DNA from: Candidatus Uhrbacteria bacterium
GTDB taxonomy: Bacteria > Patescibacteriota > Patescibacteriia > JACRJV01
Direction of reading: 5' to 3'
Assembly: GCA_016215325.1 (NCBI GenBank)
Contig: JACRJV010000023.1
Location: 1-44,684 of the forward strand
Length of the DNA stretch: 44,684 nucleotides
In this document: positions 42,964 through 44,684 of the stretch, piece by piece
Numbering within the stretch: the first letter of the stretch is position 1
How the letters are laid out: each line of letters opens with the position of its first letter
Translations under genes and position numbers: made by a program
The notes under the pieces: generated by a model
What the model was told of the DNA's origin: nothing
Database searches by the model: none
The model's input: the letters and a program-made list of their open reading frames with translations, nothing else

Positions 42964-44226
42964 CTAGAACGAACGACGGTGGCGAAGGGTCCACTGCTCG
43001 CTATACCATTGGCGACGCAGAAATCCCGCTAAGTAAAAAGATCCGGTGATGATGATCAAGTCGTCCGCACGTGCCAGCGCGCGGGCTTTTTTTAATGCTG
43101 CCAAAGGAGCAGAAACAATACGAACGTCGATCGAGGGACGGATGCGCCGAGCAGTGGCTGCGAGCTCACCGGCGGTGGCACTGCGACGCCGCCCCCAACC
43201 GTTCATGGGAAATGGCGTTACGATAAGTGTATCAATGTGGGGAATAAGGGTTCTCAAAATTCCTTCTTTATTTTTGTCGCTGGTTATTCCAACGACGGCA
43301 ATCCGGGAGGCGCCATGTTTGCGCCTGGGCAGCGACTGGCAGAAGTATCGCATTTTAACGGGGCTGTGCGCCCCATCGAGAACAATATGCGATTCAACCC
43401 ATTCCCGACGGCAGGGCAGATGCGTCTGTTCAATGACTTGTTGAATGGCGTGGTCCGGCAACCTTAAAACGGTGCCAATACGCTCGGAAAGATACACGTT
43501 GGTGAGTGGCCTTTGCGGCGGATGAAACCGTGCTCCAACCCGCTGGGATTGTTGGCGCAAAATTCCTACAACGCCCTCCTGGGAAACGTTTGTAAATACG
43601 TCTGCTTGGAATTTAATGATTTGGGCTTTATCGCGAGCAATGGCTTGAACGGTTTTGCCAAGAACATTGGTATGATCAAGACCGATTGCGGTAATAGCGC
43701 ATATACTTGGATGTTCGACAATATTGGTCGCATCGTACCTTCCGCCTAACCCTGCTTCAATGACAGCCCACGCGCACTGCCGCTGCTTAAAATACAAAAA
43801 TGCCATCGCGGTCATCAACTCAAACGTTGATGGAGACCCCAATGAACTTTTTCGCAACCGCACGATCGTTTCTTTGAGCTGCAGGGTAATCCCCTGGAAT
43901 TCCTTTGGACTGATGTATTGCCCATTGACGGCGATATTCTCAATTGGTGTGATGCAATACGGTGAAGTATAGAGCCCGGTTCGATGCCCAGCGGCCGCGA
44001 GCATGCCCGCAACCAAGGTGGCAACGGTCCCCTTCCCCGCTGTACCAGCGATATGAATAATCCGAAATGCGTCTTGAGGGTTGCCAAGATGAGCACACAA
44101 TACCCTCATGCGATCAAGGTACCGTTGCGGATTGCGTCGGTCGAGGGTAAATTGAACACTGGGCCGCACAAACGATTGAATCCATCGGACCGCATTGTGG
44201 TATTGCCGAATGTTTTGACCTTCCAT
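42964..44226 (-). CDS. folC: Folylpolyglutamate synthase / dihydrofolate synthase-like Mur ligase
   Basis: A 420-residue Mur-superfamily ligase. The P-loop is IAGTAGKGTVATL (Ala instead of the usual Asn), followed by TGLYTSPYCITPIENIAVNG, EAGLGGRYDATNI, AIGLDHTNVLG and VLDGAHSPVKM. These are FolC features: glutamylation of folates. Whether this organism makes folate is unknown; many CPR genomes lack the pathway, so the enzyme may work on salvaged folate. The start is ATG 44226 (MEGQNIRQYHNAV); a short hairpin precedes it. It follows tRNA-Lys. Confidence 0.9.
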   Translation of the reverse strand: MEGQNIRQYHNAVRWIQSFVRPSVQFTLDRRNPQRYLDRMRVLCAHLGNPQDAFRIIHIAGTAGKGTVATLVAGMLAAAGHRTGLYTSPYCITPIENIAVNGQYISPKEFQGITLQLKETIVRLRKSSLGSPSTFELMTAMAFLYFKQRQCAWAVIEAGLGGRYDATNIVEHPSICAITAIGLDHTNVLGKTVQAIARDKAQIIKFQADVFTNVSQEGVVGILRQQSQRVGARFHPPQRPLTNVYLSERIGTVLRLPDHAIQQVIEQTHLPCRREWVESHIVLDGAHSPVKMRYFCQSLPRRKHGASRIAVVGITSDKNKEGILRTLIPHIDTLIVTPFPMNGWGRRRSATAGELAATARRIRPSIDVRIVSAPLAALKKARALARADDLIIITGSFYLAGFLRRQWYSEQWTLRHRRSF

Positions 44227-44237
44227 AGATACAAGAA

Positions 44238-44258
44238 CATCCACGATTCCCGTGGATG
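44238..44258. repeat. Short perfect hairpin before folC
   Basis: CATCCACG (44238-44245) pairs with CGTGGATG (44251-44258) around loop ATTCC. It lies 12 bases upstream of the folC ATG on the minus strand and could form in the leader RNA. Confidence 0.6.
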
Positions 44259-44275
44259 AGACATTTGGGTCCATT

Positions 44276-44292
44276 CCCGACCAAGGGTCGGG
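44276..44292. repeat. Short hairpin between tRNA-Lys and folC
   Basis: CCCGACC (44276-44282) with GGTCGGG (44286-44292), loop AAG. The arm repeats the GGGTCGG of the tRNA acceptor end. There is no T-run, so it is not a clear terminator. Confidence 0.5.
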
Positions 44293-44311
44293 GGTGCTCT
44301 CAATGTTACGT

Positions 44312-44412
44312 ACAGAATTTAGCTTTGGGTCGGCTGGGGATCGAACCCAGGACCATCAGCTTAAAAGGCTGTTGCTCTACCGCTGAGCTACCGACCCAAA
44401 GCTAAATTCTGT
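44312..44412. repeat. 22-bp perfect inverted repeat flanking tRNA-Lys
   Basis: Left arm 44312-44333 and right arm 44391-44412 are exact reverse complements over 22 bases: the 7 acceptor-stem pairs plus 15 flanking pairs. The flanking part (ACAGAATTTAGCTTT on the minus-strand 5' side) pairs with the bases directly after the acceptor stem, starting with the discriminator base. Confidence 0.95.
44326..44397 (-). tRNA. tRNA-Lys(UUU)
   Basis: A 72-base cloverleaf. Acceptor GGGTCGG/CCGACCC, D-stem GCTC/GAGC, anticodon stem ACAGC/GCTGA with an A-A mismatch at the top pair, loop CTTTTAA giving anticodon TTT (Lys), T-arm CTGGG-TTCGATC-CCCAG and discriminator A. The 3' CCA is not encoded, so CCA addition is needed. 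It is transcribed on the minus strand toward folC. Confidence 0.97.
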
Positions 44413-44684
44413 TTTACGCGCTGAATCATTCCTATATCTTTTGTTTACTTTTCCAGCGGAGCTACACGCCCCGCACCCGCAGACCGGGGCCGACCCAAGT
44501 GATGCTAGTGTACTGATTTGTTGATATTTTTTCAATAGTGACTCATCAGTGGATAGATGGTGGACAGGCAGTCGTTGACGCAACGACTTACCAACGGTAG
44601 GATACGATGGCGCATCTCAAATCACTCCTCACTCCCGGATCAAGCCCGGGGCAGGCTCTGACCCTCTCCCGAGGGAAAGGTAAA
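44398..44684. other. Region upstream of tRNA-Lys, noncoding
   Basis: I see no supported gene in this 287-base stretch. It holds a probable promoter (44507-44535), a GC-rich hairpin GCCCCG/CGGGGC in the predicted leader, an 8-bp hairpin AGTCGTTG/CAACGACT (44570-44577 with 44581-44588), and at the window edge a CCCGG-ATCAAG-CCCGGG palindrome followed by CCCTC-GAGGG-type sequence that may be the start of a dispersed repeat running out of the window. Confidence 0.4.
44507..44535 (-). promoter_or_regulatory. Promoter of the tRNA-Lys transcript
   Basis: On the minus strand, TTGAAA (44535-44530), a 17-base spacer and TACACT (44512-44507). The predicted transcript begins about 100 bases before the tRNA and includes the whole 22-bp inverted repeat. 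Confidence 0.5.

Follow-up and report, generated by a model that had tools for sequence, protein, structure and literature searches.

The window analysed here, a stretch of 44,684 nucleotides (nt), is one entire contig (JACRJV010000023.1) of a 27-contig assembly (GCA_016215325.1; 1.14 Mb, 92.6% complete) from a Candidatus Uhrbacteria bacterium of the phylum Patescibacteriota. It carries, 272 nt from the contig end, a tRNA-Lys(UUU) gene enclosed in a perfect inverted repeat of 22 base pairs (bp), such that the acceptor stem of the tRNA runs on into its leader and trailer. The gene, the two arms of the extended stem and the next gene downstream are located as follows:

44326..44397, minus strand: tRNA-Lys(UUU) gene, found by ARAGORN and by Rfam RF00005 (72.3 bits over model positions 1-71)
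Landmarks of this gene read from the sequence, minus strand: G1 at 44397, anticodon at 44365-44363, C72 at 44327, discriminator A73 at 44326
44391..44412, minus strand: 5' arm of the stem, made of a 15-nt leader arm (44412-44398) and the 5' strand of the acceptor stem (44397-44391)
44312..44333, minus strand: 3' arm of the stem, made of the 3' strand of the acceptor stem (44333-44327), the paired A73 (44326) and the trailer arm down to 44312
42964..44274, minus strand: folC, an open reading frame matching NCBIfam TIGR01499 (4.7e-86)

The two arms, each 22 nt long and 100% complementary, lie 57 nt apart and form the sole inverted repeat between positions 43900 and 44684. A first-pass annotation, made from the letters of the sequence, had described a perfect 22-bp inverted repeat around the tRNA-Lys, with the acceptor stem extended by 15 bp and the discriminator base itself paired, and this description is borne out: the 7-bp acceptor stem is prolonged by 15 pairs, the first of which is U(-1)-A73. 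Beyond that description, the gene is on the minus strand, has no encoded CCA (AAGCT directly follows A73) and shares its stem architecture with other tRNA genes. The predicted RNA fold of the tRNA together with its stem has an energy of -60.2 kcal/mol (z = -8). Since this is the single Lys-UUU gene detected among the 47 tRNA genes of the source genome, its transcript must be matured. The ATG of folC lies 37 nt past the stem on the same strand, and the arrangement suggests that the tRNA and folC may be carried on one shared transcript.

Similar stems occur elsewhere in the same genome. Leader-trailer complementarity was scored outward from the acceptor stem and compared with a null in which the leaders and trailers of different tRNAs were cross-paired; it reached the level of a stem in 7 of the 47 tRNA genes, against 0.24 expected, namely those for Lys-UUU, Ser-GCU, Pro-CGG, Arg-GCG, Ala-CGC, Asp-GUC and Arg-UCU. 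CCA is encoded in none of these seven genes, as compared with 22 of the remaining 40 (p = 0.01). The arms are dissimilar between copies (at most 7/14 identity), and all 14 extension pairs vary on both sides across the paralogues, which together form a strong argument against a copied mobile repeat.

The architecture also extends well beyond this genome. A covariance model of the extended tRNA, built from the stem-bearing tRNAs of the source genome and applied at a threshold of E <= 1e-13, finds matches in 95 of 191 genomes of the class and in 45 of 192 genomes sampled from the phylum, and 18 isotypes carry stems. At the same threshold no match was found in any of eight outside genomes (Bacillus, Eubacterium, Deltaproteobacteria, Woesearchaeota and others), which had been reached via unrelated loci and in which none of 100 tRNAs bears a stem.

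Within the class, the presence of a stem is tied to the absence of an encoded CCA. A count independent of the covariance model covered nearly all tRNAs of three genomes of family f16, collected by a general tRNA family search, together with those of the source genome. Stems are present on 34 of these 187 tRNAs, and their frequency is 27/57 among CCA-less genes as opposed to 7/130 among CCA-encoding ones (Fisher p = 6.5e-11, odds ratio about 16). In one genome of this set (G057), 10 of the 11 CCA-less tRNAs are stem-bearing, whereas none of the 20 CCA-less tRNAs of the outside genomes is, a significant difference from the four class genomes (p = 6e-5). The two states can alternate for one anticodon: Ala-CGC has a stem and no CCA in the source genome (G000) and in G057, and an encoded CCA without a stem in G136 and G015, and Gln-UUG shows similar switching. 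The CCA and stem state thus goes with the individual gene and not with the anticodon. Where a stem-bearing gene keeps its CCA, the leader usually contains the complementary TGG. That a gene has either a stem or a CCA is nonetheless only a strong tendency, and CCA-encoding stems are more frequent (14/31) in a model-selected sample from the wider phylum; the tie has thus far been shown within the class, in the genomes counted here, rather than for the phylum as a whole. Clustering of tRNA genes was considered as an explanation of the stems and was not significant.

RNase III substrates are about two helical turns long, and the length of the stems fits this measure. The helix ends 13-16 bp past pair 1:72 in 24 of the 34 stems of the model-free count and only 8-12 bp past it in four, and the total stem, acceptor included, peaks at 20-23 bp, with a median of 22 bp over the 127 tRNAs of a wider set, i.e., about two turns. 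Random copying tracts or chance should tend to give shorter lengths. The arms also change in a manner that keeps them paired. In pairs of same-genus genes, drawn from the model hits and having recognisably homologous arms, 39 of 117 pair columns have changed: 17 by double changes that keep pairing and 13 by one-sided changes that keep it, while 9 lose pairing. Gln-UUG of genomes G032 and G100 differs by six double changes in 13 pairs, with the sequence just outside the stem still similar, and Phe-GAA shows four double changes.

The repeat is probably a selected RNA processing stem that is cut by RNase III, after which the tRNA would be trimmed and receive its CCA. In the primary transcript, leader and trailer would pair and lengthen the acceptor stem to about two A-form turns (22 bp), forming a double-stranded stalk that would hold the tRNA clear of a longer transcript in the manner of the leader-trailer helices of rRNA. 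RNase III would then probably cut both strands of the stalk, yielding a pre-tRNA with short paired ends, and RNase P would unwind the short remaining pairing before removing the rest of the leader. Finally, 3' nucleases would trim the product to A73 and the CCA-adding enzyme would complete the end. For CCA-less tRNAs the stem could in this way serve as an alternative entry into 3' maturation, because the tRNA genes of the class tend to have either a CCA without a stem or a stem without a CCA. What is observed is the stem with its recurrence, its tie to missing CCA, its preferred length and its compensatory changes, together with a gene for RNase III; that selection acts on RNA pairing, which enzyme cuts and in what sequence the steps follow are inferences. 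Regarding the enzymes, RNase III is encoded in 22 of the 22 genomes tested; in the source genome its gene lies in two pieces at contig ends (C23:22669-22872 and C5:4-342), so that these two contigs are probably adjacent. RnpA and a CCA-adding enzyme are also encoded there, and two HxHxDH proteins of 464 and 659 amino acids are apparently RNase J-type nucleases, judged by this motif only. RNase Z was not seen in a motif search of 815 kb (72%) of the source genome.

Several observations weigh against a selected processing stem. Eighteen CCA-less tRNAs of the source genome have no stem, and seven CCA-encoding tRNAs of family f16 have one. Same-genus stems sometimes decay, as does that of Gln-UUG in genome G155, with two broken pairs, and the drawing of the same-genus pairs from model hits favours retained pairing. 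In the unbiased set, G.U pairs do not significantly outnumber A.C mismatches (20 versus 13, p = 0.30); they do so in the model-selected set (64 versus 22), for which the model itself favours G.U. The finding of RNase III counts for little, as the enzyme is almost universal. Lastly, no RNase P RNA was detected in the source genome (Rfam RF00010, E <= 0.1). This RNA is present in all seven relatives searched, and in the source genome it either falls in an assembly gap or is divergent. A single GAGGAAAGTC match (C18:47457) was considered as a candidate and set aside, as it resembles a small hairpin and has no RNase P match. Divergent RNase P RNAs are known in genomes of the candidate phyla radiation (CPR), and the CCA-binding UGG motif is missing from roughly two thirds of the forms studied (PMC8172020). 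Loss of RNase P is not claimed as the cause of the stems, given that RnpA is present, that the seven relatives have the RNA and that such divergent forms are on record.

A neutral origin at the DNA level is unlikely, albeit the most serious alternative. Here, a replicating strand would fold back at the inverted repeat that every acceptor stem provides and use the leader as the template for the trailer, or vice versa; a single template switch of this kind would create a perfect extended repeat and, if the trailer were overwritten, erase the CCA, after which the stem would decay without a function. The tie to CCA loss would thereby be explained in a single step, as would arms that are perfect and yet unrelated to each other and the complement of CCA usually found in the leaders of CCA-keeping stems, and the lack of a significant surplus of G.U pairs in the unbiased set and the unpaired changes in some same-genus stems would be expected as well. 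However, fold-back copying fits poorly with the concentration of extensions at 13-16 bp and the small number at 8-12 bp, with the same anticodons being repeatedly stem-bearing in family f16, and with stepwise double changes in homologous arms. A mutational mechanism should also be general, yet stems are absent from the outside tRNAs tested, and the other perfect repeats of at least 18 bp with loops of 30-140 nt in 815 kb of the source genome are for the most part members of a single family of structured elements. Template switching as a full account is disfavoured by the preferred length, by the repeated appearance of stems within f16 and by the double changes made step by step.

All sequence evidence for pairing would apply equally to a selected RNA stem with another role or another enzyme, e.g., a block to 3' exonucleases, a substrate of a different double-strand nuclease or a means of separating the tRNA from a downstream mRNA. 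The start of folC so close behind the stem and the apparent RNase J-type nucleases could be accommodated by such a role, which we consider improbable given that the two-turn length suits the RNase III ruler and that RNase III is found in every genome tested. A mobile repeat, an integration scar or an assembly artefact is very improbable and has been largely refuted. The closeness of the tRNA to the contig end, the G-rich arm motifs shared by a minority of the stems in relatives and the GC-rich palindromes scattered in their genomes could be cited in its favour, but each copy in the source genome has different arms, no direct repeats are found in 43900-44684, and the same architecture occurs inside contigs of many independent genomes. 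The source genome contains no further full copy of the tRNA-Lys arms, and an exact search of the genome_contigs collection with the 46-nt leader-tRNA sequence gave no match. With FolC as the query, named relatives yielded distant matches only, at 29-40% identity. The first-pass annotation had left the choice between a precursor stem and a DNA-level element, and had judged a chance origin not credible; it had also pointed to compensatory changes between relatives as a sign of RNA pairing, and to bare flanks on the other tRNA genes or an assembly artefact as signs to the contrary. Chance is indeed excluded, as leaders and trailers of different tRNAs of the source genome, when combined, never attain such a score. 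The precursor stem has gained from the seven stem-bearing tRNAs of the source genome, the spread over class and phylum, the narrow length peak, the link to missing CCA and the 17 double changes in same-genus orthologues, whereas a DNA-level element fits poorly with arms that share no sequence and with the absence of direct repeats. An artefact is unlikely, since like architecture recurs on several further contigs and across many genomes.

Four other identities of the repeat were considered and rejected. It is not a mobile element with terminal inverted repeats, there being no common terminal sequence among the arms of the source genome, nor a tRNA-targeted att site, as follows from the missing direct repeat and arm copy. 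It does not correspond to an intrinsic terminator, since no T-run directly follows the stem (the trailer reads ...ATTCTGT and then ACGTAACATTG); T-runs of at least four follow 7% of stems and 11% of stemless tRNAs. A split or permuted tRNA does not apply either, the gene being one continuous unit.

Extended pairing at the acceptor end has been described in E. coli, where RNase P unwinds the extended leader-acceptor pairing and its cleavage is slowed by it (PMC9433436). In the present stems, too, the leader prolongs the acceptor stem by pairing, and this pairing would have to be opened before RNase P can cleave. However, only one to three leader nucleotides pair with the 3' RCCA in the E. coli pre-tRNAs, where they act as an anti-determinant (PMC9433436), whereas here 13-16 pairs are formed, mostly on CCA-less genes, and are apparently maintained. 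In S. aureus, tRNA maturation begins with RNase III cleavage, as it would here, through a stalk that is part of rRNA rather than of the tRNA gene (PMC3386247). The RNase III stems of 16S and 23S rRNA offer the likeness of a long uninterrupted leader-trailer helix that bears a mature structured RNA, with arm sequences that are free to change and kept complementary, and with RNase III encoded. In contrast to them, a single tRNA is carried here, the helix includes the acceptor stem of that tRNA and even the discriminator is paired; moreover, cleavage, the act that defines the rRNA class, is for the present stem a proposal drawn from sequence. A processing stem of a kind known from rRNA is apparently used here on tRNA genes.

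The maturation of tRNA ends is mostly known from E. coli, with its encoded CCA, and from B. subtilis, in which CCA-less tRNAs are matured by RNase Z followed by CCA addition. The B. subtilis-type route shares with the present case the CCA-less genes and the requirement for a CCA-adding enzyme; it is not known to involve a long leader-trailer helix. A clade whose CCA-less tRNAs tend to have two-turn helices suggests a third route that can be tested on sequences. We tentatively propose, as a possibility short of the probable, that tRNA genes of this phylum toggle between an encoded CCA and a helix of about 22 bp whose length a double-strand nuclease would gauge like a ruler, CCA being added later. 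If true, this toggle between two routes of 3' maturation would amount to a pathway for maturing tRNAs that has not been described in bacteria; in the searchable full-text literature, whose coverage excludes most subscription journals, no previous account of stems of this kind on bacterial tRNA genes was found. The third route, if true, would help to explain how tRNAs are matured in bacteria that have many CCA-less tRNA genes and whose RNase P RNA is often divergent (PMC8172020). The stems are also a trait easily scored in uncultured genomes.

Other structured repeats were observed alongside the tRNA stems. The source genome contains a seven-copy family of structured elements, about 150 nt long, whose core with conserved GCTGCGGAACT and ACAGTCCTCGC lies inside a long stem. 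The stem sequence is different in each copy, and perfect runs of 18-24 bp are present in four copies. No Rfam match was obtained for the two copies scanned (L416 and L438), and no member was found in viral contigs or in the other DNA examined. This family may represent a further case of an RNA borne by a long stem. Its copies are located as follows:

L403:6724-6872, minus strand: full span
L414:10668-10820, minus strand: full span
L416:11271-11421, plus strand: full span
L438:9232-9377, plus strand: full span
L419 from 1216, plus strand: core
L432 from 3139, plus strand: core
L433 from 11733, plus strand: core

A separate perfect inverted repeat of 30 bp around 92 nt, without the core motifs of this family, is found at L440:11744-11895 and overlaps an open frame of 321 codons. 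The genomes of relatives contain scattered GC-rich palindromes of the type CTGCC[CT]GCCGGCAGGC[AG]GG (complement near 1442 in L356, L343:1412, L371:2960 and others), one of which is apparently inserted into the variable region of a tRNA-Lys; G-rich arms related to these palindromes make up a minority of the extended tRNA stems in relatives. Additionally, two adjacent tRNA-Val(AAC) predictions of 69-70 nt at L083:200-344 are both atypical, and are possibly false or degenerate.
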